Source: Diogma glabrata
Taxonomy: Eukaryota; Arthropoda; Insecta; Diptera; Cylindrotomidae
Direction of reading: 5' to 3'
Length of the DNA stretch: 64,000 nucleotides
NCBI GenBank assembly: GCA_963693315.1
Contig: OY856186.1
Span: 278,895,491 to 278,959,490, forward strand
Shown: in pieces, positions 4,912 through 40,858 of the stretch
Layout: each line of letters begins with the position of its first letter
Numbering within the stretch: position 1 is the first letter of the stretch
Program-made: the position numbers and the translations under genes
The notes under the pieces: model-generated
Database searches by the model: none
Seen by the model: the letters and a program-made list of their open reading frames with translations, nothing else
What the model was told of the DNA's origin: nothing

Positions 4912-5932
<1,021 letters not shown>

Positions 5933-5950
5933 TTGGTGACATCGGCGGAT
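5933..5950 (+). promoter_or_regulatory. Primer-binding site region
   Basis: TTGGTGACATCGGCGG follows the LTR directly. TGG at the start matches a tRNA 3' CCA. I cannot assign the tRNA with confidence. Confidence 0.55.
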
Positions 5951-5966
5951 TAGTTAGCTGTTAATA

Positions 5967-6122
5967 ATGGTTTTATTAAGTGATTTGAAGGTTCTTGAGT
6001 TAAAGAAAGAACTAGAACAACGTGGATTGGCAACAACCGGCAACAAAACTGAATTGACGATACGGCTTCGAGAAGCTATGGAAGCTAGTAGTTGTGGAAA
6101 GTTACAAGTTTGGAGTGATTAG
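5967..6122 (+). pseudogene. Gag N-terminus with SAP-like domain (frameshifted from Gag)
   Basis: An ATG at 5967 opens 51 codons whose first 35 residues read as a SAP motif: LLSDLKVLELKKEL, then a glycine-containing turn, then KTELTIRLREAM. SAP is a two-helix DNA/chromatin-binding module. The frame stops at 6120-6122, while the main Gag frame is open one register over from about 6090, so a one-base indel between about 6075 and 6115 separates the SAP part from Gag. The second gypsy element in this window has the same domain at the same place, which supports the reading. Confidence 0.7.
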
Positions 6123-7704
6123 TACAAATGCTGATTCAGTAACAATTGATGAAGAGAAAAGTTCTGTTGCGGAAACAACAACCTCATTGCCACCTGCAAA
6201 TTGTGATTTTACGCAGTTAATTGCTATGATGCAACAGATGAGTTTGAACATCAGTCAACAGAATCAGCAATTGGCTGCCGTAAATACCAATATGAATCAA
6301 AAACTGGATGATGTAAATACAAACATGGCTACCACTAAGCAAGAAATTAGTTGTAACATCAATCAACAAATGGCCGCTACAAAGGAAGAAATTAGTTGCA
6401 ACATCAATCAACAATTGGCTGCAAATAAAGAAGAAATCAGTAACATCAATCAACAGTTAGAAGCAATAAACACAAACATTGCTATGAGTCGCGATGAAGT
6501 CAAACAAATTATGGATGAGAAACTTCTACAAATCTCAACGGCATTCGATGGAAAAGTCGAGAAGATTCAAAATGATATCCAAGAATTAGAACAAAAAGTG
6601 CTTGACGAAAACAAAATGGTACTTTCCAAAGTTGATGATTTCGAAAAACGGTTGCAGGATGTTGAGACGACTAAAGTTACTTCCCAGGTGGTACATCAAG
6701 TAGCAAACATCAAATTAAAGCCACCATCATACGATGGAACAACATCGTTCGGAATCTTCAAATTCCAGTTTGAAACGGCGGCAGATCAGAATGTTTGGAA
6801 CGCCGAAAATCGTCTTGCTGCATTGATAGTTGCACTTAAAGGGGAAGCAGCTGAAGCATTACAGGCAGTGCCAGAAAATGACCGGAAAAGTTATGCTGAG
6901 GTGATGAATGCGTTGGAGCGTAAATATGGCAGCGACCATGAAAAGGAATTATACAGAATCGAGTTAAAAGGTCGCTTGCAACGGAGTGGGGAAAGCCTTC
7001 AGGACTATTCCTCGGCAGTGGAACGGCTAGTTCATTTGGCACACTCAAATATGCCACCATATTTTATTGAGAAAATGAAGATCGAGGCCTTCATTGATGG
7101 TATCCAAGATCCAGAAACCAGGATAAAAGTAATAACTACACCTAAGGCGACTTTCCATGAAACAGTCGCATACGCAATGCAATATGAGATGGTACAGAGA
7201 ATGTGTATGCCATCTAGTGGATGCAGAAAAAGGAATGTAGAGGGGAACATCAAAGGAGAAGTATTGGCACACAGAAGTGGCAGCTACATCAGATGCTGGG
7301 TATGTGACGAAGAGGGTCACATGGCGCGGGAGTGCAAGAAAAACAACGAAGCAGATAGATCGTCGTTTTCTGCGAAGAATATGGGAGTTGAAGACAAGCA
7401 GCACGGAGGGTTCAGGACCAGCAGTAGGAAAATCTTGTGTTGGATATGTAGAAAATCGGGCCATATCTCACAGGACTGCTGGAACAGGAAGCGTGATAGA
7501 TCTTCGTCTCCTATTCAACGGAAGCCTGTTGAAGGTGCAACTGTAAAGCCAAAAAATGAGGAGAATGCAGCCTCCATTCCAATTTCAAGAATTGCGGTAA
7601 ATAGTGAAAGCTTGGGTATCAACGGACAACTTGAAGGTAAAGGTTGTTTCATGACACTGGATACAGGTTCAGCTCGAACATTCGTCCCGCAAATTTTTAA
7701 TTGA
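6094..7704 (+). pseudogene. Gag with two CCHC zinc knuckles, continuing into retropepsin
   Basis: The main Gag frame. Residues about 40-200 form a coiled-coil-like region with repeats of the type INQQLAA/KEEI. About 205-375 is a retrotransposon capsid domain (FKFQFETAA, ALKGEAAEALQ, LERKYG). Two zinc knuckles follow, CWVCDEEGHMAREC near 403 and CWICRKSGHISQDC near 449. The C-terminus begins the aspartic protease with the active-site DTGSARTF near 526 and then stops. The reading frame starts at a GTG here only because the true N-terminus (5967) is in another frame. Its role would be to package element RNA into virus-like particles. Confidence 0.85.
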
Positions 7705-8416
7705 CGGCATTTTGGAATCATCAGATGGATTGAAACTCCGAACAGTAACTGGAGAATGCGCTGATGTAGCTGGGAAAAGGATCGCTGAAATAAAATTAGG
7801 GAACAACTGCTATAAACAAGAGGTGCTAGTGGCAAAGATTATAGATGAAGTCGTTTTGGGGATGGACTTCTTAAAGGCGAACGGATTCGTCATCGATTTT
7901 GGACGTGGAATCCTAAAGGTTAATAATGTTGAGATGCCACTACTTGTGAATGAAGCAGAATCCATAGATATTGGCAGCGATGAGAAACTATGCAGTGCAG
8001 GGGAAAATCCAGAACCATCATCCAAACAGATGACGGAAAGAAACGTCAACCGACGCAGACGTTTGAACAAACGCCGAAAGTTAAAAAGGAAACAGGTCCA
8101 AGTCCATAACGAGGTGAGCGATGTAAAAAAGGTGGTTCAAATAGCTGCAAACGGGGATGAATCGCAGCTGAAAATGAGAATGGTTCGGAGACATGGCATT
8201 GTGAAACTCCCAAAGGGAAGTGATAAGAAGCACTTTAGAAATAATGAGAATCCCTACTCATCACGGTGGGCTGACATAAAACAAAGTAATGGCCCAGTAC
8301 TTAGAAAGGAACCGGAAGTAATTCTAAATAGCCTGGGAAATAGGAAAAGAAAAAAAATGTTTGGATTCAACAATTGGAGGAGAGATCTAGATCCTGTTCG
8401 GGACGAACAGGCTTAA
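7705..8416 (+). pseudogene. Retropepsin C-terminal half and basic tail, Pol core missing
   Basis: A one-base frame change near 7700 separates this from the DTG half. It begins with the protease flap and C-terminal hydrophobic motif (VVLGMDFLKANG near residue 48) expected of gypsy retropepsins. A lysine/arginine-rich stretch follows (RRRRLNKRRKLKRK), then a tail ending VRDEQA. No RT YXDD box, RNase H or integrase motif is present, so several kilobases of pol have been lost. The ending VRDEQ plus purine tract is shared with the second gypsy element, placing both in related lineages. Confidence 0.75.
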
Positions 8417-8427
8417 GTGGAGGGCAA
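8417..8427 (+). promoter_or_regulatory. Polypurine tract
   Basis: GTGGAGGGCAA directly precedes the 3' LTR. It matches the minus-strand tract of gypsy element 2 (TGGAGGGCAG) and would prime plus-strand DNA synthesis. Confidence 0.8.
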
Positions 8428-9316
<889 letters not shown>

Positions 9317-9324
9317 AAACATCA

Positions 9325-9515
9325 AAAATTTTTTCTGTATACGTTGCGGCAAAAAATTTCTTGGACAAGTTTGTGAACTGGCCATATCCGGGTACAGGTT
9401 AAGTGGCTAGAGCCAAAAAAGTGGAATAATCTAGGGCCTTATAACTTCCGTTTGAATCATAATATTTTAATAAAATTTATCAATATATAATATTTAAACA
9501 TATTTCTATCATTTT
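9325..9515. repeat. Dispersed repeat R, copy 1, left half
   Basis: Matches 32582-32779 closely and resumes at 11700. It is split by the hammerhead repeat array. The last 16 bases (9500-9515) form the left target-site duplication. No protein function recognised. Confidence 0.88.
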
Positions 9516-9625
9516 GGATTTTTGAGATCAATTAAACTCAAGTAAGTAAAGAAGTAATTGGAATATTTTCAATTCAAAGGTATGGTTTGAAGTTTCTCAG
9601 AAAAAAACTACAATTCACATTTTTT

Positions 9626-9692
9626 ACGTGTTTCGGATCGGATTCGAACCTACCCTCGTCAGTGCCCGGCTCGAATCTTTGGGCAGACACGC
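9626..9692 (-). ncRNA. Type III hammerhead ribozyme, copy 1
   Basis: Read on the minus strand. Stem III GCGUGU pairs with ACACGU; cleavage triplet GUC, cut between 9686 and 9685; stem I UGCCC pairs with GGGCA around loop AAAGAUUCGAGCC; core CUGACGA; stem II GGGUAGG pairs with CCGAUCC (one G-U, one A-G mismatch) around loop UUCGAAU; then GAAA. All invariant core positions are present. Loop I GAUUCGA is complementary to UCGAAUC spanning loop II, as expected of a loop-loop contact. It would self-cleave unit-length RNA from a multimeric transcript. Confidence 0.88.
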
Positions 9693-10142
9693 TATCGATT
9701 ACGCCGTTGAGGCGATGACAATTTCAAAGTTGAAACTTCTTCATCACTTATTTATTTTTACTTAAGTTGAATTTTTCCACTGTCATTAGACTCCATATTA
9801 TGGAAATGCTTTTACATTATATGGGATTTTTTGCATTAAATTTCTAGACAATACTTTGTGTGAATTCATAGAATGGGGAACATTTCTATTCTAATTAACA
9901 TCCTAAGTCACGATTGTATAGTCATTATTGATTGTTTCCAATCAATGTGAAATCAATGGCTGACACTTGGTCAATTTGTAGTTCTACATGTATTAACATT
10001 AGACTACATTAAGGGAATTTAAATTTCATTTTGGATTTTTGAGATCAATTAAACTCAAGTAAGTAAAGAAGTAATTGGAATATTTTCAATTCAAAGGTAT
10101 GGTTTGAAGTTTCTCAGAAAAAAACTACAATTCACATTTTTT

Positions 10143-10209
10143 ACGTGTTTCGGATCGGATTCGAACCTACCCTCGTCAGTGCCCGGCTCGAATCTTTGGG
10201 CAGACACGC
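10143..10209 (-). ncRNA. Type III hammerhead ribozyme, copy 2
   Basis: Identical in all motifs to the copy 517 bp upstream. Cleavage falls between 10203 and 10202 on the minus strand. A third minus-strand copy starting at 10660 is cut off after about 18 bases by the inversion junction near 10677. Confidence 0.88.
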
Positions 10210-10782
10210 TATCGATTACGCCGTTGAGGCGATGACAATTTCAAAGTTGAAACTTCTTCATCACTTATTTATTTTTACTTAAGTTGAATTTTTCCACTGT
10301 CATTAGACTCCATATTATGGAAATGCTTTTACATTATATGGGATTTTTTGCATTAAATTTCTAGACAATACTTTGTGTGAATTCATAGAATGGGGAACAT
10401 TTCTATTCTAATTAACATCCTAAGTCACGATTGTATAGTCATTATTGATTGTTTCCAATCAATGTGAAATCAATGGCTGACACTTGGTCAATTTGTAGTT
10501 CTACATGTATTAACATTAGACTACATTAAGGGAATTTAAATTTCATTTTGGATTTTTGAGATCAATTAAACTCAAGTAAGTAAAGAAGTAATTGGAATAT
10601 TTTCAATTCAAAGGTATGGTTTGAAGTTTCTCAGAAAAAAACTACAATTCACATTTTTTACGTGTTTCGGATCGGAATATGGAGTCTAATGACAGTGGAA
10701 AAATTCAACTTAAGTAAAAATAAATAAGTGATGAAGAAGTTTCAACTTTGAAATTGTCATCGCCTCAACGGCGTAATCGATA

Positions 10783-10849
10783 GCGTGTCTGCCCAAAGAT
10801 TCGAGCCGGGCACTGACGAGGGTAGGTTCGAATCCGATCCGAAACACGT
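10783..10849 (+). ncRNA. Type III hammerhead ribozyme, copy 3 (inverted half)
   Basis: Same sequence on the plus strand: stem III 5' strand from 10783, GUC ending at 10789 with the cut after it, core CUGACGA, GAAA at 10841-10844, stem III 3' strand to 10849. Confidence 0.88.
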
Positions 10850-11299
10850 AAAAAATGTGAATTGTAGTTTTTTTCTGAGAAACTTCAAACCATACCTTTG
10901 AATTGAAAATATTCCAATTACTTCTTTACTTACTTGAGTTTAATTGATCTCAAAAATCCAAAATGAAATTTAAATTCCCTTAATGTAGTCTAATGTTAAT
11001 ACATGTAGAACTACAAATTGACCAAGTGTCAGCCATTGATTTCACATTGATTGGAAACAATCAATAATGACTATACAATCGTGACTTAGGATGTTAATTA
11101 GAATAGAAATGTTCCCCATTCTATGAATTCACACAAAGTATTGTCTAGAAATTTAATGCAAAAAATCCCATATAATGTAAAAGCATTTCCATAATATGGA
11201 GTCTAATGACAGTGGAAAAATTCAACTTAAGTAAAAATAAATAAGTGATGAAGAAGTTTCAACTTTGAAATTGTCATCGCCTCAACGGCGTAATCGATA

Positions 11300-11366
11300 G
11301 CGTGTCTGCCCAAAGATTCGAGCCGGGCACTGACGAGGGTAGGTTCGAATCCGATCCGAAACACGT
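11300..11366 (+). ncRNA. Type III hammerhead ribozyme, copy 4
   Basis: Exactly 517 bp after the previous plus-strand copy with all core and stem bases conserved. Cleavage is after 11306. Two same-strand copies spaced one unit apart would release a 517-nt RNA. Confidence 0.88.
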
Positions 11367-11699
11367 AAAAAATGTGAATTGTAGTTTTTTTCTGAGAAAC
11401 TTCAAACCATACCTTTGAATTGAAAATATTCCAATTACTTCTTTACTTACTTGAGTTTAATTGATCTCAAAAATCCAAAATGAAATTTAAATTCCCTTAA
11501 TGTAGTCTAATGTTAATACATGTAGAACTACAAATTGACCAAGTGTCAGCCATTGATTTCACATTGATTGGAAACAATCAATAATGACTATACAATCGTG
11601 ACTTAGGATGTTAATTAGAATAGAAATGTTCCCCATTCTATGAATTCACACAAAGTATTGTCTAGAAATTTAATGCAAAAAATCCCATATAATGTAAAA

Positions 11700-11919
11700 A
11701 TATTTCTATCATTTTTTTCCAAATTACAACCTTGGCGTTCCAGGTTCCTAAAAAATCAGCTGTTTTAAAAATTTAATAAACTTTGTTGTCCTTGATTTGG
11801 CTGAAAATGGCCAATTTCACTTTTGAAAATTTATGCACACGTTAACTAGAACATAAATCTTTCCAAAATTTTAAAAAAAAGTAGTTCAAGTCTAGAGGTT
11901 GAGACACCAGGGCTGTTAG
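11700..11919. repeat. Dispersed repeat R, copy 1, right half
   Basis: Continues the repeat broken at 9515 and matches 32764-32986. Both copies end at GGGCTGTTAG. Confidence 0.88.
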
Positions 11920-15418: not shown

Positions 15419-16043
15419 TGTAACGACTCTTCGTTGGTTCTTTTAGATTATTGAGCAAATACGACAGTAAAAAGACAGATCTTTAGTTAACAAAATCCCA
15501 AACTTTATTTATCAACCAGATACAGCAACTTCCGATTTTAATTACAATAAATTCCAGGGTCTCCAATTTATGCACGATGAACTTCACTGCTTTTCCACAA
15601 TTTGAATCAATAATACTCGGAATCGTAAAATCTGTATTTACTATTCCACTAAGTTCAAATTCTTTTACTATTAGTACCCAGGCTCAAGTACCACCGATTA
15701 TTCCTTATACTTTCGAATATTTGTAAAACACTTTTAATTGCAAAATTAAAAACTGACTATCTGATATTTTTGTTCGCTTATTTATATCGAAAAATAAATA
15801 AATCGAAACTTCTATAATCCACTAGAAATCAATACTACGTAGTCCGTACATCTTGAATAGGCCACACCTGTTTTCATTCATACTTGCATTTGTATTAGCG
15901 AACTCAAATTTAATTTATGCAAAATGTATTTGTTAAAGGGAGTTGATTCATCTTTGCCATAGAATGTAGAAAACATTTAGGCGGAACGTATTGGTTATTT
16001 ATGATTAAATTAAATTAACCCATTCTGGACGAAGTTTATTATA
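15419..16043 (-). repeat. 3' LTR of gypsy element 2
   Basis: Directly repeated at 18914-19539. The last two bases are TA here against CA in the other LTR, consistent with one transition. Confidence 0.93.
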
Positions 16044-16054
16044 CTGCCCTCCAT
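16044..16054 (-). promoter_or_regulatory. Polypurine tract
   Basis: On the minus strand ATGGAGGGCAG abuts the 3' LTR. It is near-identical to the tract at 8417-8427. Confidence 0.8.
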
Positions 16055-18634
16055 TTAGTTTTGTTCGTCCCGAACAATATCAGCTATCGCATTGGTGCTG
16101 TTACCTTGGTACGGTGCAAACCTTTGCAGATGTATCACTTTCATCTTGGTACGGGGTCCCTTTTGTATGCGGTAGATAACATCATTAATTCGTTTGATTA
16201 TTTTATATGGGCCTTCCCAATCTGGCTGCAGCTTGGGTGATCTTCCCTTAGTTCTTCTGGGGTTGTATAGCCATACCAATTCTCCTTCTTGAAAACCGCC
16301 ACTATTTGCATTTATGTCGTACCTGGTTTTCATTTTGTCACTGGCAATCTTAATGTGGTCTCGAACCTGCTGATGGATTTTATTCATCTTCTCCCTTAGT
16401 TGTCCCACATAATCTGTTTTCGTGGATACCAGACCTCCAGGGATGCCAAACTCGATGTCACTAGGAAGATGTAGTTCTCTTCCGAACATGATATTCTCTG
16501 GCGTTTCACTTGTCGTATCGTGCACTGCGCTACGATAGGCCATCAAGAATAACGGAAGATCCTTGTCCCAATTTCTTTGGTTGGCTTCTACTACCTTTGA
16601 CAAATGTTCTTCCATGGTTCGGTTGAATCGTTCTACCATGCCATCCGACTGCGGGTTCATAGGTGTAGTTCGTGTTTTTCTAATGTCGAGTGTTCTGCAC
16701 AGCTCTTCCATCAATTGAGATTCGAAATTCCTTCCCTGGTCCGTATGCAACTCGTGCGGTGTTCCATATCTGCAAATCCATTCATTGACTAATGTTTCAG
16801 CGACCGTAACTGCTTCCTGGTTCGGTATTGCATAAGCTTCCGGCCATTTTGTAAAGTAATCAATGACCACCATGATGTATTTGTTACCTTTTGTAGTTTC
16901 CGGAAATGGCCCCGCGATGTCTATAGCAATTCTCTCCATTGGGGCGCCCAAATTGTACTGTTGCATCTCTCCTCGAGTTCTAGTCTTTGATCCTTTGCTC
17001 GCCGCACAAGTATCACATCGCCGACACCATTGCTCTACGTCGGTTCGATACCTTACCCAATAAAACCTCTCCCTTACTTTAGCCAGGGTTTTATTGACTC
17101 CCAGGTGTCCTCCAGAAATACTTCCATGCAGCTTTCCCAGTACCTCTTCTACTCGACTTGATGGCAGTACCAGTTGCTCTAACACTTTCTTTCCATCAGC
17201 GGACTCCCATTTTCTTTTTAGTATCCCGTTGTCCATCAATAGTGAGTCCCATTGCGCCCAGTAGCACTTCACCTCCGTACTTAAAGGTGCTACCTCTTTC
17301 CACTCCGGTCGCCTTCCCTCGGTTTTCCATTTCAATATTGGTGCCATAGCTGGATCCTTTTGCTGCTCTCTTTTCATTGCCTCGGTACACCAATCGTCAG
17401 GAGTTTGGAACTTAATTTGCTTCACTGTCATTGCCTCTTTTCTCTCAGTCCTGCTACATGGCTTGCGCTCCTCAATACAGGGTCTTTTTGCGCTCCTCAA
17501 TACAGGGTCATCAGCGTTACAATGTATCCTTCCCTTCCGGTGTGAACCGTGGAAATCTCTTTCCTTTTTGACATCCACTTGCTTGTTTGAGAGGTTCATC
17601 AACTGGACTGGAACTACTCCTTCTTTTGCTGCTACTCGTGTTTTGCATTCCCGTCTAATGTGCCCTAACTTCCCACAGTTCCAGCATCGTACTCTGCTAG
17701 ACCTACTTCGTTGATTTCGCTCAGGCTTATCTCCCAGACTTTTGACACTTATGATCACTTCATCAAGCGCTGCTCTTAGAGGTTCTTCTGTAACTTCCAT
17801 CTGACGTACTCTATCTGAACCGTACGCTCTTTTTCCAGCTTCCATTTGCAGGGCCAATGCTAAGACTTCTGCAGGTAGCTTCTTTCCGCTTGGATAAAGC
17901 TGATTCCTCATTTGAACATCTCGAAGAGCATTGATAAATGTATCAGCTGCCAATTCGTCTCGGTGTTCAGCGTTATAGTTCGGGTATGACAGATTTACCA
18001 GTCTCACAATGTCAGCCTCTAATTCTGGCAAAGTTTCGCTGACTCCTTGTTTCCGTGTTTTGAGCTGCATGCGATGGAGAGCTTGCATATGACTTTCCCC
18101 ATATCTTACTTCTAAGGCCTCCATTATCTTGCTGTAATCACGCTCTGTCGCTGATAGTGTTTGCAAAATTTTAGCAGCAGGTCCCTTCAATGCCAATATA
18201 AGCGCGTTTGCTTTTCGCTGGTGCTCAACCCCAGTTGTTGCTATCTCAAATTGCATCTTAAATATCTGATACGATGTAGATCCATCAAATGCGGGTGTTT
18301 TTACTCTAGCTGGGGCTGAAGTAGTTGATAGATTGATCATGTTACCTGACTTCCCTTGTGCTATTTCTTGGCGTAATTCACTTGAAAGTTTGCGTAATTT
18401 CTCTTCATGTTCTTCGGTAACTTTCCGCAGCTCCCTTTCCACGTTGTTGATTTTCACCTCTGCACTGGATATACGTGACTCGATTACTTCACGTAGACTT
18501 TCTTGCTTCGCCATCATATCAGCAAATTGTTGTCGTTGCTCTACTTTTTGTTCTGCTGCCTGTTTTTCTTGTCGGGCCATCATATCAGCAAGTTGTTGTT
18601 GTTGGTTGTTTCCTTGTTTGGTCATTATAAGCAA
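16055..18634 (-). CDS. Gag-integrase fusion polyprotein of gypsy element 2
   Basis: 859 codons in one frame. Residues 1-110 are Q-rich and coiled-coil-like with repeats of QQLADMMA. About 115-290 is retrotransposon capsid. A single CCHC knuckle CWNCGKLGHIRREC lies near 316. At about 350-375 Gag switches to the end of RNase H (HCNAD) and then to integrase: zinc-binding H..H..C..C near 500-545, catalytic D near 570 (IDIAGPF), D near 630 (HTDQGRNF), E near 668 (SDGMVERFNR), and a C-terminal GPY/F-type module (WEGPYKII). Protease and reverse transcriptase are missing. At the join a 22-bp direct repeat (17463-17484 and 17488-17509) marks the rearrangement. The frame has stayed open, so it could in principle give a particle protein fused to an integrase. 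Ends VRDEQN. Confidence 0.88.
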   Translation of the reverse strand: MLIMTKQGNNQQQQLADMMARQEKQAAEQKVEQRQQFADMMAKQESLREVIESRISSAEVKINNVERELRKVTEEHEEKLRKLSSELRQEIAQGKSGNMINLSTTSAPARVKTPAFDGSTSYQIFKMQFEIATTGVEHQRKANALILALKGPAAKILQTLSATERDYSKIMEALEVRYGESHMQALHRMQLKTRKQGVSETLPELEADIVRLVNLSYPNYNAEHRDELAADTFINALRDVQMRNQLYPSGKKLPAEVLALALQMEAGKRAYGSDRVRQMEVTEEPLRAALDEVIISVKSLGDKPERNQRSRSSRVRCWNCGKLGHIRRECKTRVAAKEGVVPVQLMNLSNKQVDVKKERDFHGSHRKGRIHCNADDPVLRSAKRPCIEERKPCSRTERKEAMTVKQIKFQTPDDWCTEAMKREQQKDPAMAPILKWKTEGRRPEWKEVAPLSTEVKCYWAQWDSLLMDNGILKRKWESADGKKVLEQLVLPSSRVEEVLGKLHGSISGGHLGVNKTLAKVRERFYWVRYRTDVEQWCRRCDTCAASKGSKTRTRGEMQQYNLGAPMERIAIDIAGPFPETTKGNKYIMVVIDYFTKWPEAYAIPNQEAVTVAETLVNEWICRYGTPHELHTDQGRNFESQLMEELCRTLDIRKTRTTPMNPQSDGMVERFNRTMEEHLSKVVEANQRNWDKDLPLFLMAYRSAVHDTTSETPENIMFGRELHLPSDIEFGIPGGLVSTKTDYVGQLREKMNKIHQQVRDHIKIASDKMKTRYDINANSGGFQEGELVWLYNPRRTKGRSPKLQPDWEGPYKIIKRINDVIYRIQKGPRTKMKVIHLQRFAPYQGNSTNAIADIVRDEQN

Positions 18635-18884
18635 ATTGTTGTTGCTGCTGTGCCATCATTTCTTTCATCAACACCATCATCGGATCAATTGCTGGGGCAT
18701 TCTGGACCGTAACTTCCTCTGGCTCTACCTCTATGACCTCTGTGTTTTGGCCTGCTTCTTCTAAAACTTTACGCATCCGGAATGCAAGTTCTGCCTTCGT
18801 TCCATGGATTAGAGCATTCCTTTTCTTCAACTCATCCTTCAGCTGGGTCTGGCTGAGATCACTAATATTTACTGTCTTGACCAT
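18585..18884 (-). pseudogene. Gag N-terminus with SAP domain (frameshifted)
   Basis: The ATG at 18884 follows the primer-binding site closely. Residues about 5-45 form a SAP motif (ISDLSQTQLKDELKKR, then a glycine turn, then KAELAFRMRKVL), followed by an acidic linker and a Q-rich stretch. The frame is lost by a one-base slip near 18628, inside the Q-rich repeat, where the 859-codon frame takes over. SAP domains bind AT-rich DNA, so the domain may tether the particle to chromatin; that role is inference. Confidence 0.75.
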
Positions 18885-18895
18885 TGTTTCAATAA

Positions 18896-18913
18896 TCCCA
18901 CTTCTGACACCAC
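18896..18913 (-). promoter_or_regulatory. Primer-binding site, tRNA-Leu type
   Basis: The minus strand reads TGGTGTCAGAAGTGGGAT directly after the LTR and one G. This is a sequence I associate with tRNA-Leu-primed gypsy elements. Confidence 0.7.
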
Positions 18914-19539
18914 TGTAACGACTCTTCGTTGGTTCTTTTAGATTATTGAGCAAATACGACAGTAAAAAGACAGATCTTTAGTTAACAAAATCCCAAACTT
19001 TATTTATCAACCAGATTTTAACTTCTTCCGATTTTAATTACAATGAATTCCAGGGTCTCCAATTTATGCACGATGAACTTCACTGCTTTTCCACAATTTG
19101 AATCAATAATACTCGGAATCGTAAAATCTGTATTTACTATTCCACTAAGTTCAAATTCTTTTACTATTAGTACCCAGGCTCAAGTACAACCGATTATTCC
19201 TTATACTTTCGAATATTTGTAAAACACTTTTAATTGCAAAATTAAAAACAGACTATCTGATATTTTTGTTCGCTTATTTATATCGAAAAATAAATAAATC
19301 GAAACTTCTATAATCCACTAGAAATCAATACTACGTAGTCCGTACATCTTGAATAGGCCACACCTGTTTTCATTCATACTTGCATTTGTATTAGCGAACT
19401 CAAATTTAATTTATGCAAAATGTATTTGTTAAAGGGAGTTGATTCATCTTTGCCATAGAATGTAGAAAACATTTAGGCGGAACGTATTGGTTATTTATGA
19501 TTAAATTAAATTAACCCATTCTGGACGAAGTTTATTACA
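18914..19539 (-). repeat. 5' LTR of gypsy element 2
   Basis: 626 bp bounded by TG and CA in plus orientation, differing from its partner by a few substitutions and a short replaced segment near 19014. Confidence 0.93.
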
Positions 19540-19779
19540 ATATTATTCTGTTTGGGTGTTGTGGGCAGTATTATATTGCAATACTTGTCGAGGTTATCGT
19601 AAATAGTTTTCTATGACGGGAAATATGTATGCCGTTTCTGCCAAAAATCGCAAAACCATAATTATCTATTCTATCTGTCACTAATAAAAGTTTTTCCGGC
19701 ATTTGAAGTTATTACTTTTAGAACGCTTTCTAGCCGACATTTGCTTTATGACTACACTAAAAATAAAAAAATAAAAAAC

Positions 19780-20385
19780 TTAAAAAAAAAATAGAACCGA
19801 CTTCAGAAAAAGCAACAGAGGCACAAAAAAGTGAAAAATAACTCAATTGTTGCTTTTAGAAACAAAAATACGTTACATTTTGATTAATTTAATTTAATTA
19901 TACCTTACTATAGACAAAAAAATTACGCTATTAAACAAAGTTACTATATTTAAATAATTATTTTTTATTATAATTATTATAGTTATTATAAATGTTATAA
20001 TATATATTATATTTTAAAAGTTATTTGTAGTACAAAACTGTTCGAAGTCGGTGCCACATTGACGAAAACCCGACTAATATGTGATATGTCTCGGGCTTGG
20101 CACCGATTTCCAACAGTTTTGTACTACAAATAACTTTTAAAATATAACAAATATTATAACAACTATAATAACTATAATAATTATAATAAAAAATAACTAT
20201 TTAAATATAGTAACTTTGTTTAATAGCGTAATTTTTTGTCTATAGTAAGGTATAATTAAATTAAATTAATCAAAATGTAACGTATTTTTGTTATAAAAGC
20301 AACAATTGAGTTATTTTTCACTTTTTTGTGCCTCTTTTGTTTTTTCTGAAGTCTATTTTTTTTTTTAAAGTTTTTTTGAGATTTT
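19780..20385. repeat. Long foldback element
   Basis: The left arm to about 20056 pairs with the right arm from about 20098 over some 260 bp with few mismatches. The loop is 20057-20097. Arms begin near AGAACCGACTTCAGAAAAAG and its complement at 20345-20360. No coding frame. Probably a non-autonomous foldback DNA transposon. Confidence 0.85.
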
Positions 20386-20588
20386 ATTTTATGTTAATGA
20401 TTATAAGAAAAAGTTTGGTTTTAAAATATTTATTTAATATTATATTATATTTTGTGATTGTGGATTATATTGAAGTTGAAATGAAAGCGAAGTAAATTAT
20501 ATGTGTTGTTGCGGCTTTTTGAGATCAGCTAAACTCAAGTAAGTAAGGAAGTATTTGAAATTTTTCAATTCGAAGGTATGTATGGTTG

Positions 20589-23117
20589 GAAAATGGAAAC
20601 AAGGAACAAAAATGACGTGGTTGGAAAGAAAATCAACCATTAGAGATCAAATGAAAATGAATTTGTATTGGAACAGTTTGCAACCCTCAATAACTTAAAA
20701 ATTGTAAGTACCTGGGGAAGGAACTCCATCCTAATAACATGGACAAGAGGTGCAAATTCATCAGAACGTCACAGCGCAATGTGACATTAGGAGCCAAAAA
20801 TAACACTCAACAAGTAACAAATGAAATTTACCATAGAGATTGGAATCTACAACTATTAAAAATAGAAAAATACTGGAGAAATATGATGATAATTTCAATA
20901 AAAGAAATATTGAAAGCAAATGAAAAATCATAACTGAATGTATTAAAAATGCAGCAGAAAAGTTTCTGAAAAAGAAACTTCCCCTTACACCTAGAAGAAG
21001 GAGAGCTTTGGCAGCCTTAAAGAAAGCACAATTTCTAAAAAAATAGGGATCCAAGTAACAGTCATTTTTTTAACCAAATAAGAGCAGCAAGGCAGAACCT
21101 CTCAAATAGCTACAAGACGCGTCGAATGGAAAGCTGTAGTGAATTATTCAACAACATAGGTAAGAAAAACTAGCTGCAAATAGGAGAAAAAAAAATTCCT
21201 TAATGAATATAGAAAAGGACAAAATCAGGTTAATTCACACTATATGCCAATCTCAGCTTGTTATAATGAGCTACAAAAATTTGAAAGAGGTTGGAATCCA
21301 GTTATACCAGAAGAAGATCATTGGCTTATGGAACAACCACCAACGAAATCCGAGGTGGAAAATGCAATTGCATATTAGAGATCCGGGACTGCACCAGGTA
21401 GGGATGGCATATCAATGGAGCTATGGAAAGAAGCTCCTGTTGAAATTGTGTCGGCTGTACATCAGCTTATAGAGGAGATTCGGAAGAATAATACGCCACC
21501 AGATGATTGGATATATACAATTCAATTCCCTATCCCAAAAAAAGAACCGTGTCTCAATCAACGACTACAGACGGATAACACTGTGCAACACGATATATAA
21601 AATCTATGCAAAATTATTACTGGATCGATTGGATAAAAAACTCACAGAACCTGCTGCCTACCAGGCAGCATTTCTCAAAAATAGGTCAACGGATGATCAT
21701 ATGTTCACTTGCAGAAGAATATTAGAAGAAAAATTGAGAGCTAGAAATTAGCATAATGTATTCTCCCTAGACCTTGAGAAAGCCTTTGATAGAGTGGACC
21801 TAACAGTAGTTTCAGCGGCCCTGAATCATAAAATTCCACATCACCTGTGTAACAGAATCACTAAAGCATGTTTTTGGGAGAGAACCAGTCTTCGATGGCT
21901 CAATATACAAACAGGGAAAGTAAATAAAAACAGACGAGTGAAGCAAGGATGCCCTATACCACCGAGAATATTTACTTTTATAATAAATGAAGTATTGGAG
22001 ACTATTCAAGAACAATATCCAGAACTAAAACTGGACCAACGAGACACAATCACCCTTCCAATAATCTTAGTTTTTTCAGATGATGTCATTATAATAACAA
22101 GAAATTTCCGAAATATAGATGTAATTGTCAAGGAATTGGTAGCAGTACTAAAATCAGTTGGTTTAACAGTGAATGATACCAAATCCACAGTACTTGTAAG
22201 AAATCCTGCAAACCAAGATCCAATACCCCCATATATACTGTGTGGCGGAAAAAACTTTAAAGTAGTAAAAACGATGCGATATTTGGGCACATATATAATG
22301 GATAGGTTACAAAGACGTCATACGATCAAAAGCAGATGCCATAAAGCAGCAGGAATAGCTAAACAAATATCGCAATCCATTAAGATACATTAAATTCCGA
22401 CAAACATAGTTTTAAGAATTTATGAAACGATAATTGCTGCTGTAATAACTTATGGTCTCAAGGTACCAACGCTAACCAAGGAAAACAGAGTGCGTCTTCG
22501 CAAATATGAACAAATGCTATTATGCAAGTTACTTCAGTTTGCGTCAGACAGACCAACTCGAATAAAGATCAAAGAAATACTACAAGGAAAAACAATAACA
22601 AAGAAGGTGAAAACTCTTCGGATTCATTATTGGGGACATATTGCTAGAAGAGAGAGGACATATTCTACATGCAGCAACAAATTATGTAGCAAGTAAAAAG
22701 AAAATAGGAAGACCATGCCTAACGTGGACAACTTAATAAAATCGAATAGCGCCTTTTTGTCGCATACATTAATGGAATGGGAAGAAATACTCAAGGATAG
22801 GAATTATGTGAAACACGCGGTGCGGGCTATATATGAAGAGGACGAATCAGATGACAATGAAGTCCAAGATGAATCAGAATCAGATACAGAAATGATTAAT
22901 CCAACATAGGCGAAAGAAAAGGAAAATATTTAAGATGTATGGCGTTTTTTTGTATTGTAGAATCTAGTTATGTATATTTAATGTATATAGACTTCATGGT
23001 GAACTGGAACTGGATTTATTCTTGTGTTGTTCTAACTATCCTTCATGTTACTTGTTAAAAGATATACGGAGGGCCTGGCCATTCATTCATTCATTAATTC
23101 ATTCATTCATTCAAAGA
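20589..23117 (+). mobile_element. RTE-like non-LTR retrotransposon, degenerate
   Basis: Flanked by a perfect 12-bp duplication TATGTATGGTTG (20577-20588 and 23118-23129) inside repeat E. It ends in an ATTC-type simple tail (about 23081-23112), typical of RTE elements, which lack poly(A). Endonuclease motifs are not recognisable. Reverse transcriptase is in pieces from about 21400 to 22700. Confidence 0.82.
21400..22909 (+). pseudogene. RTE-type reverse transcriptase, broken by stops and frameshifts
   Basis: Pieces in order: fingers/palm start (WELWKEAP, then a KK-bounded segment), NDYRRITLCNTIYKIYAKLL and NRSTDDHMFTCRRILEEK (about 21500-21750), a stop, FSLDLEKAFDRVDL (about 21765), then an open frame 21794-22393 with VKQGCPIPPRIFTF and the catalytic box as SDDVIII, then stops and thumb/C-terminal pieces (LRIHYWGHIARR). 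The catalytic FADD is degenerate to FSDD. The tail 22715-22909 is acidic. A dead copy. Confidence 0.82.
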
Positions 23118-23162
23118 TATGTATGGTTGTAAGTTTCTCAGAAAAACCACACTTCTCATTTT

Positions 23163-23227
23163 ACGTGTTTCGGATGAACTCGAACCTTCCTCGTGAGTTC
23201 CTTGTTCGAATCCTGAGGCAGACACGC
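23163..23227 (-). ncRNA. Decayed hammerhead ribozyme in repeat E copy A
   Basis: Stem III GCGUGU with ACACGU, the GUC triplet and GAAA are kept, but the core reads CUCACGA, a G5-to-C change that abolishes activity in hammerheads. Stem I has a mismatch. Compare the intact core in copy B. Confidence 0.75.
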
Positions 23228-23993
23228 TATCGATTACGCCGTTGAGACGATGACAATTTCGAAGTTGAAACTTCTTCATCACTTATTTATTTTACTTAAG
23301 TTGAATTTTTCCACTGTCATTAGACTTCATATTATGGAAATGTTTTTACATTATATTGCGATTTTCGCATTAGTATTGTGTTTTAGTGAAGTTGTATTTT
23401 ATTGAAGATGTAAATTGTGTTGTGTTTTATACTTCTAAGACCTCAACACCTATAGTTCAGTTGATCTGTCAGTCATTTAAGTCGATAAGTCAGTCATTTA
23501 AGATATCAAACGCTGATGTAGCTCTATTTGTTGAGCATAACTGGTGACAGGCTATTTGTTGGCTTATTTGAGGTTTTTTTAAATGCTTTATCCCATGTTT
23601 TGTGGACTTCTGAACAACAGTTAGTCCTTGGAATGGCGTCGAACGCTTTTATTGTTTTTTGGCACTGCGAATTACGTTCTTCCACTGAAGCTACACGTTG
23701 TTTTTGTCTTCTTTAATGATCTTGTTACAAACGATTAGCTGTTACAGGAGGTCCTGTTACTAGCGGTGATGAGTGTTGAGTATGGTGAATTATGGTAGGC
23801 GCCTTTCTTTTGACAAATTGGTTCATCGTGAATTATTAATTAAGGCAAAGTTTCGAACTGTTCAACTTTTATTGAGGACTACGCCTTCGAAAAAAATCTA
23901 AAGTCGCTTCAGTGCGTTTTCTAAAAATTTGATTTTGATTTGGGCCAGATTAAGACAGGATTAGGTTGGTTTAAAGTGTCTTTATGTTAAAGT

Positions 23994-31802: not shown

Positions 31803-32100
31803 TTGATATTGTTTTGCGTGAAGCTCAATTCCATGATACTGGAAATAATGTTTTTTTCTTGACAGCTCATGCAGGTTGTGGCAAAACTTTTGTTCAAACG
31901 GCAATCATTCATAAATTTAATTCATTAAATCTTTCGTGTATTGTAACTGCCTTCAGTGGTATTGCATCAACTCTTTTGATTGGGGGGCGAACTTTGCATA
32001 ATGTTTTCAAATTACCAATTCCATTATTAGAGAATTCAATGCCAAATATAACTCCAAACAGTGTACATGGCACATATATTAATAATGCATCAATCATTAC
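31799..32100 (+). pseudogene. Helitron helicase N-terminal fragment (P-loop)
   Basis: In a different frame from Rep and overlapping its stop. It contains the Walker A motif AHAGCGKTF near residue 24, then SGIASTLLIGGRTLHNVFKLPI, the standard start of a Pif1-type helicase. Roughly 20-40 residues expected between Rep and this point are missing, so a small deletion caused the frame break. The sequence is cut at 32100 by the palindromic MITE, and I do not find the rest of the helicase beyond it. Confidence 0.88.
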
Positions 32101-32102
32101 TA

Positions 32103-32513
32103 GGAGGGCCCGGCGTGCTTCGCTACGCTTATAAATAAAGTTTTTGCGTAGACATTTTGTTGACGTAGAAGCAATGATTTCAAAAAGTGGTAATGAGAAA
32201 TGCTACCATATAATTTTTAATTTTTCTTTTTAAATATATGAATGAAAAATAATCAGAACTCTAGCTGATCAGTTGGGATATATGAAAAATTAGCGATCAA
32301 ATAAGTTTTCAAGTAAGCTTCGCTAATTTTTCATATATCCGAACTGATCAGCTAGAGTTCTAATTATTTTTCATTCATATATTTAAAAAGAAAAATTAAA
32401 AATTATATGGTAGCATTTCTCATTACCACTTTTTGAAATCATTGCTTCTACGTCAACAAAATGTCTACGCAAAAACTTTATTTATAAGCGTAGCGAAGCA
32501 CGCCGGGCCCTCC
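32103..32513. mobile_element. Near-perfect palindromic MITE with TA target duplication
   Basis: 411 bp. The termini GGAGGGCCCGGCGTGC and its complement are flanked by TA on both sides (32101-32102 and 32514-32515). The arms pair over about 190 bp with almost no mismatch around a loop near 32291-32325. The TA duplication suggests a Tc1/mariner-type source. It interrupts the Helitron helicase. Confidence 0.9.
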
Positions 32514-32581
32514 TAGTATATATAACTATATGAGCTATAACGGAATTTACCGGCACTCTCACGATTGTATTTCTTGACCTA

Positions 32582-32986
32582 CAACAAAAATTTTTTCTGT
32601 ATACGTTTTGCGGCAAAAAAGTTCTTGGACAAGTTCTCGAACTGGCCATATCCGGGTACAGGTTAAGTGGCTAGAGCCAAAAAAGTGGAATAATCTAGGG
32701 TGTTATAACTTCCGTTTGAATCATAATATTTTAATAAAATTTATCAATATTGAATATTTAAACATATTTCTATCATTTTTTTCCATATGACAACCTTGGC
32801 GTTCCCTTGGTTTCTAAAAAATCAGCTGTTTTAAAAATTTAATAAACTTTGTTGTCCTTGATTTTGCTGAAAATGGCCAATCTCACTTTTGAAAATTTAT
32901 GCACACGTTAACTAAAACATAAATCTTTCCAAAATTAAAAAAAAAAGTAGTTCAAGTCAAGAGGTTGAGACACCAGGGCTGTTAGT
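32582..32986. repeat. Dispersed repeat R, copy 2 (unoccupied site)
   Basis: A complete copy of the repeat seen split at 9325-9515 and 11700-11919. It contains the unduplicated 16-bp target at 32764-32779 and so defines the boundaries of the hammerhead array insertion. It ends at GGGCTGTTAG directly against repeat E copy B. Confidence 0.88.
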
Positions 32987-33048
32987 TGTTTCGGATGAAT
33001 TCAAACCTTCCTCGTCAGTTCCTTTTTCGAATCCTTAGGCAGACACGC
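32987..33048 (-). ncRNA. Hammerhead ribozyme, repeat E copy B, truncated stem III
   Basis: Core CUGACGA and GAAA intact and the cleavage triplet GUC kept. Stem I UGCCU/AGGAA has one mismatch. Stem III is cut to about 3 bp because the repeat is truncated at 32987. Loop I GAUUCGA still pairs with UUGAAUU spanning loop II through two G-U pairs. Weak or no activity expected. Confidence 0.7.
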
Positions 33049-33365
33049 TATCCATGACGCCGTTGAGACGATGACAATTTCGAAGTTGAAACTTCTTCAT
33101 CACTTATTTATTTTACTTAAGTTGAATTTTTCCACTGTCATTAGACTTCATATTATGGAAATGTTTTTACATTATATTGCAATTTTCGCATTAGTGTTGT
33201 GTTTTAGTGAAGTTGTATTTTATTGAAGATGTAAATTGTGTTGTGTTTTATACTTCTAAGACCTCAACACCTATAGTGCATTTGTTTGTTTTCATCGTTT
33301 TAGTCCAAAAATGTATATAAATTAAGCTTTTTGTTCAATTTTTCAAAACATTTTATTTAATTATT

Positions 33366-33408
33366 TGACGACATGTTTCAGCTTTTAACAAAAGCTATCC
33401 TCAGGTCA
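33366..33408 (-). ncRNA. Minimal type I hammerhead ribozyme in Penelope copy (minus)
   Basis: Minus strand: stem I UGAC pairs with GUCA; core CUGAGGA; one extra U; stem II AGCUUUU pairs with AAAAGCU around a two-base loop; GAAA; a very short stem III (ACAUGU, self-complementary) ending in the cleavage triplet GUC, cut between 33370 and 33369. The short stem III suggests activity as a dimer, as reported for Penelope hammerheads. Confidence 0.78.
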
Positions 33409-33690
33409 GAACAAAAAATATTCAACTATACAAAACAGAAAATGATAATAATACAATTTAAACAATATCAGCAAAAATCACTTACAAAAATGTATTGTCC
33501 AAATAAACAACTTCACTGATTATCACTAATCTTATTATTATTAATTTTAATTTTCAATTAAAAAAATTTTTTCAATTAATTATAAACTAAACTGAAACAT
33601 ATAAAATATCGTCTTTAAACAAACGGATAAAAAGTTTTTTTGAAAGATAAAACAAAGATAGACAGACAGTGTTTTAAAATTTTTTAAAAT

Positions 33691-35544
33691 TTAAATAAAA
33701 GAAAGGTATACATTATCTAAATATGTGCAATCAGATTGTATGTTCATATTGTTATGGAATTTTTTAATATAAATTGACTCAAGAATTTTGCGCTTAACCG
33801 TATTAGACTCAAAATTTAAAATTTCAGGATTATCCCAATCAATTTTATGATTACTAGTAATAACATGATCACATAAAGCACTATGTGACCCATTACCTCT
33901 AGAAATATGATATTTATGGTCCTTTAACCTGGAAACAAGATATTGTTTAGTTTCACCAATATATGTTATTGTTAAGCCACAATTAGGTTCAGCACAATTA
34001 ATTTTGTAAACTAAATTAGAAAAATATTCTTTGGGAACACGATCTTTAAGAGGTGTCAAAATACGATTTCTTAGAGTATTGCAAGGTTTACAAACTGCTT
34101 TAATATTATAATTATGTAACACACGATTTAAATTCTCAAATAAAACCTTAACATAAGGTAGGGATACAAATTTAAAAGTGCTGTCCTGATTATTAACTCT
34201 AGAAATGTCAAAATTTAAATTATTATGTATATTGATAGTATTGTAAATGTGATGATCAATAAATTTTTCGGGATAGAAATTTTCTTGAAGAGTAGTTTTT
34301 AATAATTTGAAATTTTTATGATGAAAAATGGGATTCGATAATTTTAAAATTTTTTCTGTCAATATTGATACAGTATTTTTTTTATACGAAATTGGAAGAG
34401 AAGAGTTGAAATTTAAATAACGACCAGACCAAGTAGGTTTCAGATACCAATCTGTTATTAATTCACCAAGATTGTTTTTTATAACTAAAGTGTCCAAAAA
34501 AGCAATTTTGTTTTCATTCTCAATTTCAAGAGTAAATTTAAGTCGAGGATGGTAATTATTAAATTTAACAAGAACAGAACCAATTAAAATACTAGGAACA
34601 GCGGTCAGAATATCATCAACATAACGCATATAAAATGGAAGCACAAAGTCCAAAGATTCAATAATTTTAATTTCAACATATTCCATAACCAAATTAGCTA
34701 ACACTGGACTAGCTGGAGATCCCATAGGAGAACCATAAATTTGTTGATAAAAAACATTATTATAAGAAAAATAACAATGGTTTAATACTAATAACAGTCC
34801 TTCAATGAAAATATCTTTCTCTAAAATTTTATATTGAATATTGTTTTTTGTTTTTCTAACATTAACAGAATTTTGTCGTCGAATATTACTAATAATAAAT
34901 TCTTGATTAGCAAGTTCTTGAATAACTATTTCAATTTCATCCCATTTACTTTCAATACACTCAAGAACTAAGGAATTTGGAATATTTGTGAAAAGTGATG
35001 TCACATCTAAAGAAATCAAAGAATAGTCTATAGGAATAACTAAATCTTTAATTTTATCAATAAAATCATAAGAATTTTTAACATAGCTAAAAGTCTTTCC
35101 AACAACTCTTGATAGAATATCAGAATAAAATTTTGAAAGATTATATAAAGGAAAATTAATATAAGAAACTATAGGACGTAATGGTTCACCAATCTTATGG
35201 ACTTTTACTAACCCATATATGCGTGGAAAAGAACTATTATATTTCCGCATAAGAGTTGCACGTTCATTTGTTAAATTACTATTCAATTCTAATTTACTAA
35301 CAAAAGTATTGGTTTTTCTTTGCAAATAAGCAGTTTTATCCTTTGGAATAACCTTATAAGTATCAGTGTCATTTAAGTAAGAAGACATTTTACTATCATA
35401 ATCAGATAAATTCATAACAACTGTTATGTTACCTTTGTCAGCTTGGGTTACAATTAAATGAGGATTATCAATAAAAAAAGAATTGGTCTCTGTGAGATTT
35501 TTTTGTAAAATTATGCGGAAATATAATAGTTCTTTTCCACGCAT
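33691..35544 (-). CDS. Penelope-like reverse transcriptase with GIY-YIG endonuclease, 5'-truncated
   Basis: 617 codons; the first dozen or so residues are read from the inverted neighbour across the junction near 35513. An N-terminal segment (TQADKGNITVVM near 33) is followed by RT fingers and palm (YGLVKVHK near 110, SLDVTSLFTNIP near 178, GSPMGSPASPVLANL near 270, catalytic RYVDDIL near 305, a primer grip/thumb region with KIAFLDTL near 345), a long linker, a Cys pair (CKPCNTLRNR near 485) and a GIY-YIG module near 527 (TYIGETKQYLVSRLKDH). There the usual LTYIGETK is expanded by two residues (LTITYIGETK). It makes cDNA primed at an endonuclease nick. The frame is fully open over the retained part. 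Confidence 0.93.
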   Translation of the reverse strand: MRGKELLYFRIILQKNLTETNSFFIDNPHLIVTQADKGNITVVMNLSDYDSKMSSYLNDTDTYKVIPKDKTAYLQRKTNTFVSKLELNSNLTNERATLMRKYNSSFPRIYGLVKVHKIGEPLRPIVSYINFPLYNLSKFYSDILSRVVGKTFSYVKNSYDFIDKIKDLVIPIDYSLISLDVTSLFTNIPNSLVLECIESKWDEIEIVIQELANQEFIISNIRRQNSVNVRKTKNNIQYKILEKDIFIEGLLLVLNHCYFSYNNVFYQQIYGSPMGSPASPVLANLVMEYVEIKIIESLDFVLPFYMRYVDDILTAVPSILIGSVLVKFNNYHPRLKFTLEIENENKIAFLDTLVIKNNLGELITDWYLKPTWSGRYLNFNSSLPISYKKNTVSILTEKILKLSNPIFHHKNFKLLKTTLQENFYPEKFIDHHIYNTINIHNNLNFDISRVNNQDSTFKFVSLPYVKVLFENLNRVLHNYNIKAVCKPCNTLRNRILTPLKDRVPKEYFSNLVYKINCAEPNCGLTITYIGETKQYLVSRLKDHKYHISRGNGSHSALCDHVITSNHKIDWDNPEILNFESNTVKRKILESIYIKKFHNNMNIQSDCTYLDNVYLSFI

Positions 35545-35737
35545 ATATGGGTTAGTAAAAGTCCATAAGATTGGTGAACCATTACGTCCTATAGTTTCTT
35601 ATATTAATTTTCCTTTATATAATCTTTCAAAATTTTATTCTGATATTCTATCAAGAGTTGTTGGAAAGACTTTTAGCTATGTTAAAAATTCTTATGATTT
35701 TATTGATAAAATTAAAGATTTAGTTATTCCTATAGAC
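35514..35737 (+). pseudogene. Penelope RT 5' piece, plus-strand copy, before the hAT
   Basis: Encodes the segment from RKYNSSFPRIYGLVKVHK to DLVIPID, the same as residues about 100-175 of the minus-strand copy, then enters the hAT. The copy resumes at 39212. Confidence 0.9.
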
Positions 35738-39203: not shown

Positions 39204-39211
39204 CTATAGAC

Positions 39212-40815: not shown

Positions 40816-40858
40816 TAACCTGAAGATAGCTTTTGTTAAAAGCTGAAACATGTCGTCA
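40816..40858 (+). ncRNA. Minimal type I hammerhead ribozyme in Penelope copy (plus)
   Basis: Same structure as at 33366 with core CUGAAGA. Stem I is UAAC against GUCA, one C-A mismatch caused by a G-to-A change. Cleavage would follow the GUC ending at 40854. Confidence 0.7.

Follow-up and report, generated by a model that had tools for sequence, protein, structure and literature searches.

A non-coding retrozyme-like element with a type III hammerhead motif in the fly Diogma glabrata and its probable insertion by Penelope-type machinery

Introduction

Within a 64,000-nucleotide stretch of the genome of the dipteran insect Diogma glabrata (GenBank assembly GCA_963693315.1, contig OY856186.1, positions 278,895,491 to 278,959,490 of the forward strand; hereafter the window), repeat units of 517 bp at positions 9516-11699 carry complete motifs of the type III hammerhead ribozyme. 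We believe, with a probability of roughly 0.7, that these units represent a non-autonomous, non-coding retrozyme-like element that is inserted by Penelope-type machinery, which would prime from both strands of its target on a circular or multimeric RNA. What can be read from the letters is a ribozyme motif with compensatory change between subfamilies, dispersal through the genome, fixed 3′ ends at two internal sites that are used as a pair, a constant head-to-head order of arms, target-site duplications and a nick motif. To these can be added the apparent use of a template that spans the ribozyme cleavage junction, and the same anatomy in a Penelope-like element residing in the window. The element is young, present in many copies and dispersed, and is not a satellite. 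Published work is cited by its PubMed Central identifier, and our statements about it concern the portions of these sources that were available.

Insertion anatomy

The units at 9516-11699 are spaced by exactly 517 bp and are 100% identical to each other except at the outer ends. A perfect 16-bp target-site duplication, ATATTTCTATCATTTT, is found at 9500-9515 and 11700-11715, and the single further copy of this 16-mer, at 32764-32779 in a paralogous flank, corresponds to an empty site. These features had been recognized in a first-pass annotation of the window, and its proposal that consecutive same-strand copies would release one 517-nt unit is supported by the spacing. However, where that annotation saw a single bounded array, the duplication in fact encloses two divergent arms that point outwards from 10676/10677, a head-to-head, two-ended anatomy that it did not describe. 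The left arm (9516-10676, minus strand, 2.2 units) runs leftward to a 3′ end at an internal site that we call X, and the right arm (10677-11699, plus strand, two units) runs rightward to a 3′ end at a second site, Y. When phase is counted from the first base after the predicted ribozyme cut, the left arm ends at phase 177 by BLAST and at 170 once the duplication is trimmed by hand, and the right arm ends at 406 and 393, respectively. Internal plus-strand copies of both sites can be seen at 10951-10971 (X, CAAAAATCCAAAAT..., the end point of most insertions) and at 11159-11179 (Y, CAAAAAATCCCATATAA..., the end point of the opposite arm).

The same two sites recur elsewhere in the genome. We examined 76 loci, comprising all 74 clusters behind the first 100 listed matches to the main-family pattern described below, the array itself and another window copy at 53353-53668, with segments more than 120 bp apart treated as separate. 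Their 3′ ends fall at X (phase 168-190, about 175) or at Y (phase 372-396, about 388). Plus arms alone are present at 29 loci and minus arms alone at another 29, while 18 loci are head-to-head with the minus arm first, and tail-to-tail copies number zero. Among the 58 single-arm copies, X is the 3′ end in 52, Y in three, and some other position in three. Of the 18 two-armed loci, 15 combine an X end with a Y end (14 directly, and the window array after hand-trimming of its duplication); there are no X-X or Y-Y copies, and the two sites are paired in every clear case. Very short Y arms of 15-16 nt are carried by loci L034 and L048, both of which were first called single, and only L048 is counted among the 18.

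Sites X and Y have the sequence CAAAAA(A)TCC in common, which is present in the unit only at phases 162 and 370; at least two copies arose in 10 of 5000 shuffled units. The 5′ ends are scattered round the unit, such that only 2 of the 52 X-ended singles begin within 6 nt of the predicted cut. A template spanning the cleavage junction is indicated by the 48 of these 52 that are long enough to cross it, and 26 of the 58 single-arm copies are longer than one unit. The 5′ ends of X-ended singles also cluster near Y (12 of 52 at phase 360-398, an interval set after seeing the data), which is only suggestive and might mean that synthesis primed at X frequently halts at the place occupied by the other complex.

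The insertion is bounded by an exact duplication of 10 bp or longer at 49 of the 76 loci, compared with 14 of 449 in a null made of mismatched flanks, and the commonest lengths are 12 and 13 bp. (A wider duplication search gave 38 of 60 without its own null; the counts quoted are those of the 76-locus test.) If 48 insertion sites are oriented on X, one nick has the motif AAAAY|ATAA and the other AT|NTTTT, so that a single motif is seen on both strands, less pronounced at the second nick. Duplications, a fixed 3′ end, a variable 5′ end and the lack of a protein are all hallmarks of retro-insertion, and the element is thereby a retrozyme in the wide sense of a non-autonomous retroelement bearing a hammerhead. 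Its flanking duplications, its head-to-head arms and its use of two distinct internal start sites are characteristic of Penelope-type insertion.

The unit has a GC content of 32%, its longest stop-free stretch (tested on a trimer) is 71 codons, and it does not encode the reverse transcriptase (RT) and GIY-YIG domains expected of a Penelope-like element. It contains no A or T run of 8 or more. The tandem units are short and GC-poor, as in known retrozymes, and no long terminal repeats (LTRs) were seen, in a search that did not extend to primer-binding sites and polypurine tracts.

Dispersal through the genome

A main-family pattern consisting of the ribozyme core plus stem II has 3044 exact matches (1496 + 1548) in the 1.33-Gb assembly and 0 in the reversed-pattern control, and it has 0 matches in viral and prokaryotic contigs. 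A second subfamily accounts for a further 657 exact matches to its own pattern (350 + 307; control 0). A single core match is present in 61 of the 74 clusters. Same-strand units of the main family are spaced by 513-520 bp, with 516 in 11 of 19 cases, whereas the unit of the second subfamily is about 550 nt long (spacing 549-551 in 17 of 24 neighbours within 2.5 kb). Neighbouring copies of the second subfamily among its first 100 places are ordered minus-plus nine times and plus-minus never.

The median divergence of units is 0.74% within a locus (31 loci) versus 3.6% between loci (1891 pairs), in a test that covered 62 of the 76 loci (60 fetched plus the two from the window). All substitutions at loci L020 and L053 (5 and 7) are common to every unit of the locus. 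This pattern of divergence fits, but does not prove, one template per insertion followed by decay. The first-pass annotation had compared the array to both hammerhead-bearing satellites and retrozymes. The retrozyme comparison is supported by the sequence, while that to a satellite does not stand, since the copies are dispersed with duplications and fixed 3′ ends.

The hammerhead motif

Five complete hammerhead motifs in the window match a descriptor that requires three stems in addition to the core bases, and only 3 of 150 dinucleotide-shuffled windows gave one each. The core pattern alone has 5 matches compared with 0 in 100 shuffles. Four motifs lie in the array, at 9626-9692 and 10143-10209 on the minus strand and at 10783-10849 and 11300-11366 on the plus strand, where the predicted cuts follow 10789 and 11306. 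These are the four that the first-pass annotation had listed as having every invariant core base and three paired stems, and each agrees with the descriptor; the fifth, at 53489-53555 (plus strand), it did not list. In the array ribozyme, stem III is formed by CGUGU/ACACG and the cut follows GUC, after which come stem I (UGCCC/GGGCA, with a 13-nt loop), CUGACGA, stem II (GGGU.GG/CC.AUCC, with the loop UUCGAAU) and GAAA. The sequence features of the Rfam family RF00008 are all present, including the core CUGANGA, GAAA, the A15.1-U16.1 pair, an NUH cut site and three stems, of which stem III is open.

When 101 bases were given to Rfam, the sole match at E ≤ 10 was RF00008 (Hammerhead_3) at 10782-10850 on the plus strand, with 27.1 bits and an E-value of 2.5e-4. 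Nothing was found in the whole window at the gathering threshold, and a search at E ≤ 10 with 2401 bases missed the ribozyme, perhaps through filters. We call the motif hammerhead-like on its letters and E-value, and not by the curated cut-off. Complete motifs, 99 in all, are present at 67 of the 76 loci, a figure that is biased upward because the loci were found through a core pattern.

A second-subfamily copy in the window provides an opportunity to compare diverged ribozymes. Its left arm (45463-45945, minus strand, about 74% identity) has a ribozyme at 45797-45870 and ends at the equivalent of Y, its right arm (45946-46414, plus strand, about 72% identity) has one at 46224-46297 and ends at the equivalent of X, and neither has a clear target-site duplication. 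This ribozyme has CUGAUGA, GAAA and three stems built of different letters, with A.C at pair 10.1-11.1. Between the array and 45797-45870, by a count made by eye on these two subfamilies only, five pairs differ on both sides (stem I pairs 1, 3 and 5, stem II pair 2 and stem III pair 5), and the stems thus appear to be kept by compensatory change. Furthermore, loop I is complementary to loop II in the seven window copies that were folded. This could be a loop-loop contact like that of the type III motifs of hepatitis delta virus (HDV)-like RNAs and flies (PMC7936874), or it could be part of an inactive hairpin.

A resident Penelope-like element

The window also holds an element of the candidate helper type at 33278-40979. 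We take it to be a member of the Penelope-like family from relatives that carry RT and GIY-YIG domains, of which the nearest named are from Bradysia and ants; Pfam detects RVT_1 below the curated cut-off. Like the ribozyme element, it is head-to-head, with a minus arm at 33278-35510 and a plus arm at 35511-40979. Its 9-bp duplication ACCTATAGT lies at 33269 and 40980, and a paralogous flank has a single copy of these letters at 23448. One arm ends immediately past AAACAAACAAAT, and the other has a tail of about 34 nt. Genome-wide, the pattern of the Penelope-like 3′ end has 69 matches at 57 loci, among which there are 12 minus-plus pairs within 15 kb and 0 plus-minus pairs. Ends were fetched for 10 of the 12 pairs: a tail of about 32 nt is present on one arm only in nine of these ten, as it is in the window's own pair, and duplications of 11-15 bp are present in eight.

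Several other observations concern this element. Its plus arm is split by a hAT transposon at 35738-39203, which has a dimerisation domain and the 8-bp duplication CTATAGAC. At about 33340-33410 (minus) and 40815-40880 (plus), the two arms have a minimal type I-like hammerhead motif, CTGAGGA...GAAACATGTC, whose putative cut site, judged by letters only, would be about 90 nt before the first RT start site of the element. Rfam does not recognize this hammerhead-like motif in the Penelope-like 3′ region. A further RT fragment with Penelope-like motifs is found at 59037-60176 (minus strand; RVT_1 below cut-off).

Biochemical work on this family provides a plausible basis for the anatomy that we observe. 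When purified, a Penelope-like protein was able to cut each of the two strands and to extend it, with synthesis beginning at two adjacent internal sites of the RNA; it prefers AT-rich targets, and uncut RNA is its main substrate, ribozyme cleavage being dispensable (PMC11167929). In a rotifer, Penelope copies are found head-to-head with a tail on one inverted end, which has been ascribed to self-priming on an antisense template (PMC3846280). Priming from both strands on sense RNA at two sites would explain the ends of the clear cases in Diogma. We also considered the resident LINEs (long interspersed nuclear elements) and the window Penelope copy as partners sharing a 3′ tail with the unit, but CAAAAATCC is absent at the 3′ ends inspected. 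Therefore, the link to Penelope rests on anatomy.

A model for insertion

According to the reading that we favour, tandem or read-through transcripts would undergo one self-cleavage in each 517-nt unit, and the resulting monomers would be closed into circles by ligation. A Penelope-type reverse transcriptase and endonuclease would then make a staggered cut at AAAAY|AT...AT|NTTTT, 12-13 bp apart, and, as the anatomy suggests, reverse transcription would begin within the RNA from each of the two 3′ ends, at X for one and at Y for the other. Copying of variable length round a circle or along a multimer would yield tandem units, and joining of the two complementary DNAs (cDNAs) would yield a head-to-head array flanked by a target duplication. 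If the Y arm were short or absent, the copy would resemble a simple 5′-truncated insertion.

We tentatively go further, at somewhat less than even odds, and propose that a Penelope-type dimer reads a single circle with two dedicated start sites simultaneously from the two 3′ ends left by one staggered break, using X for one strand and Y for the other. Rolling-circle copying would then write arrays in one step, and the two-site rule might be a general cause of the inverted copies and optional tail of Penelope elements.

Points against this reading and alternative explanations

Several findings weigh against the reading just outlined, and the first group concerns the ribozyme. The score of 27.1 bits is well below the curated gathering score of 48.5 for RF00008, and the second-subfamily copy at 46224-46297 obtains only 12.7 bits (E 3.1) in Rfam. 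The first-pass annotation had named the lack of a covariance-model hit above threshold as one outcome that would refute it. By the curated cut-off this outcome is what was obtained, although the sole match is to a type III hammerhead and the E-value says otherwise. The minimum-energy fold of the array motif is an inactive hairpin (-23.2 kcal/mol versus -16.8 kcal/mol for the hammerhead without loop-loop pairing). Conservation within the young family was tried as proof of selection and was set aside: core positions outside the search pattern vary at 0.44% and the remainder at 1.78%, but once the stems are added to the core the difference is not significant (6857 of 20000 randomly drawn position sets are as low). 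Ribozyme cleavage and RNA circles are predictions made from sequence.

Other exceptions concern the anatomy. Three of the 18 pairs (L045, L057 and L076) have one unclear end and do not show a clear X-Y combination, one plus-minus neighbour pair, 1150 bp apart, exists beside 6 minus-plus pairs among the first 100 places, and 25 of the 76 loci have no exact duplication of at least 9 bp. In the tenth Penelope-like pair (L091/L092), neither arm is tailed and no duplication was found. A comparison of the window with itself finds no sequence common to the unit and the Penelope-like element beyond the A-rich start sites. Finally, the 28 loci with enough overlap have 88 substitutions common to all units and 101 that are unit-specific.

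Given that the available text of PMC11167929 describes uncut RNA as the main substrate and cleavage as dispensable, linear multimers of the RNA, instead of circles, are a realistic possibility. The element would be the same, its template would be an uncut multimeric transcript, and the ribozyme would trim the RNA or be a passenger. Templates that span the cut site are also compatible with this version. However, compensatory changes between subfamilies seem to have preserved the ribozyme, and monomers, once cut, would have to be ligated before they could serve as templates for cDNA that spans the junction. On balance, we regard this version as unlikely, although it deserves serious attention.

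More doubtful is insertion by a resident LINE through target-primed reverse transcription with ordinary twin priming. Twin priming by LINEs can also yield duplications of 10-16 bp and inverted 5′ parts. Against this, the ribozyme element has fixed 3′ sites on both arms, the same motif at both nicks, a unit lacking A or T runs of 8 or more and a two-end rule that is repeated in the Penelope-like element. In a small control, no pair was found among 16 LINE places. We consider a LINE origin improbable.

It is still harder to accept that the element is a short interspersed nuclear element (SINE) derived from a tRNA, with an accidental likeness to a hammerhead. The main family has, in stem-loop II of the ribozyme, an exact match (GGTTCGAATCC, 10825-10835, plus strand) to the B-box consensus of RNA polymerase III (pol III), and the second subfamily has a match, TGGCTAAGTTG, to an A box. 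All 5 exact B boxes in the window are in the ribozyme element, but 5 are also present in 194726 bp of flanks fetched with the loci, some of these flanks holding further copies. As promoter evidence, the A box is weak, since 38% of such stretches would contain one by chance if a single mismatch is allowed. A run of five to seven T residues comes 31-44 nt after the B-box start in three of five copies examined, including a T7 run at 10868-10874 (plus strand, 43 nt after the B-box start) that might serve as a pol III stop. Pol III would tend to terminate at this T7 run, short of X and Y, which makes a pol III promoter for whole units doubtful. Moreover, no tRNA was found by ARAGORN or by Rfam at E ≤ 10, where RF00008 was the sole match, and the three stems are re-formed in changed sequence.

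The notion that the units are tandem satellite DNA, spread and homogenised at the DNA level by unequal exchange and extrachromosomal circles with a ribozyme that has no role in dispersal, would account for a near-constant unit length and for units that are more alike within an array than between loci, but it is scarcely credible given the predominance of clusters with one core match, the duplications, the fixed 3′ and scattered 5′ ends, and the empty site of the array.

Other copies and repeats in the window

The fifth intact ribozyme lies within the copy at 53353-53668 (plus strand), which extends from phase about 374 to X between duplications of AAATTCTCAA at 53343 and 53669. Its target, 52462-54316, is one of two paralogous A+T-rich tandem repeats in opposite orientation, the other being at 44046-45462. 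Older copies are all on the minus strand: 42701-43101 has a broken ribozyme core and no hammerhead match, 32987-33193 has an intact core and a truncated stem III, and 23109-23372 has a mutated core (CTCACGA, with G5 changed). The last two probably descend from one original insertion that was duplicated with its flank. At 20513-20580 (minus strand), a segment ending at X and lacking a ribozyme was considered as a LINE tail and rejected by eye; it looks like a short relic.

Among unrelated repeats, direct 94% repeats at 5356-5932 and 8467-9024 flank a gag-like frame with a zinc knuckle. A scan of a single frame revealed no pol domain (a 253-aa frame at 7655-8416 was outside the scan), and 5356-9024 is possibly an LTR element without pol. 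Direct repeats of 98.6% at 15419-19537 flank one 866-aa frame that has a zinc knuckle and integrase and lacks an RT domain; this may be an LTR element that has been shortened internally. Long palindromes that are 86-96% self-complementary and resemble fold-back elements are found at 19773-20376, 32098-32518 and 61706-62225.

Relation to known systems and significance

Type I hammerheads are known from published animal retrozymes, for which help from Penelope elements has also been suggested (PMC7229834). The metazoan non-LTR retrozymes described there by Cervera and de la Pena in 2020 resemble the Diogma element in having short, GC-poor tandem hammerhead units, no LTRs and coexisting Penelope-like elements. 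However, their definition calls for type I motifs, whereas the array motif is type III, and their circular RNAs are about 170-400 nt compared with units of 517 and about 550 nt here, where the insertion ends (X, Y and the head-to-head arrangement) are also resolved. The type III hammerhead is an attribute of plant LTR retrozymes (PMC4918200, as reported in PMC7229834), which form RNA circles of 600-800 nt but have LTRs and Gypsy-type mobilisation, neither of which was seen here. The elements SM-alpha and W of Schistosoma (PMC2770079, PMC8490949) are also SINE-like or satellite hammerhead repeats, with a tRNA relation for SM-alpha, but they are type I, and the available text mentions no X-Y rule.

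The first-pass annotation had held that animal hammerheads are mostly of type I, which agrees with PMC7229834, and that a type III example would be unusual. The latter view must be softened, since type III motifs with pairable loops 1 and 2 are described in Drosophila pseudoobscura, other dipterans and termites (PMC7936874). These motifs, and those of HDV-like RNAs in the same source, are animal-associated and have a 5-bp stem I as in Diogma, whereas their loop sequences differ and the accessible portion describes no retroelement anatomy. Penelope-like elements (PMC3846280, PMC11167929) resemble the ribozyme element in their head-to-head inverted copies, (partial) tandem copies, two RT start sites and a hammerhead. 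Their duplications are likewise short, at 8-10 bp, and a tail of 30-40 bp is present on one inverted end. Unlike the Diogma unit, with at most 71 stop-free codons, they encode RT and GIY-YIG and, by report, minimal type I hammerheads; the start sites are about 32 nt apart in Penelope-like elements and about 211 nt apart (X to Y) in the ribozyme element. Neither a type III animal retrozyme with resolved ends nor an X-Y rule for both strands was encountered in the open-access literature as far as its text was available, with subscription papers and preprints outside the search. Given that a type III hammerhead in an insect has already been reported (PMC7936874), the new part is the two-site, both-strand rule.

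The Diogma element would place in an animal retroelement a type III hammerhead, a ribozyme found chiefly in plants and subviral RNAs. The case made in PMC7229834 was built on common hammerheads, tandem copies and coexistence, whereas the Diogma element would tie an animal retrozyme to its insertion machinery by anatomy. To account for how Penelope elements insert, and for why head-to-head, one-tailed copies are so frequent, one proposal invokes self-priming on an antisense template (PMC3846280), and the in vitro study leaves the later steps unvalidated (PMC11167929). A non-coding passenger with thousands of core matches, two fixed start sites and consistent X-Y pairing in the clear cases would preserve the traces of both-strand priming in vivo, in a form that allows counts across the whole genome.

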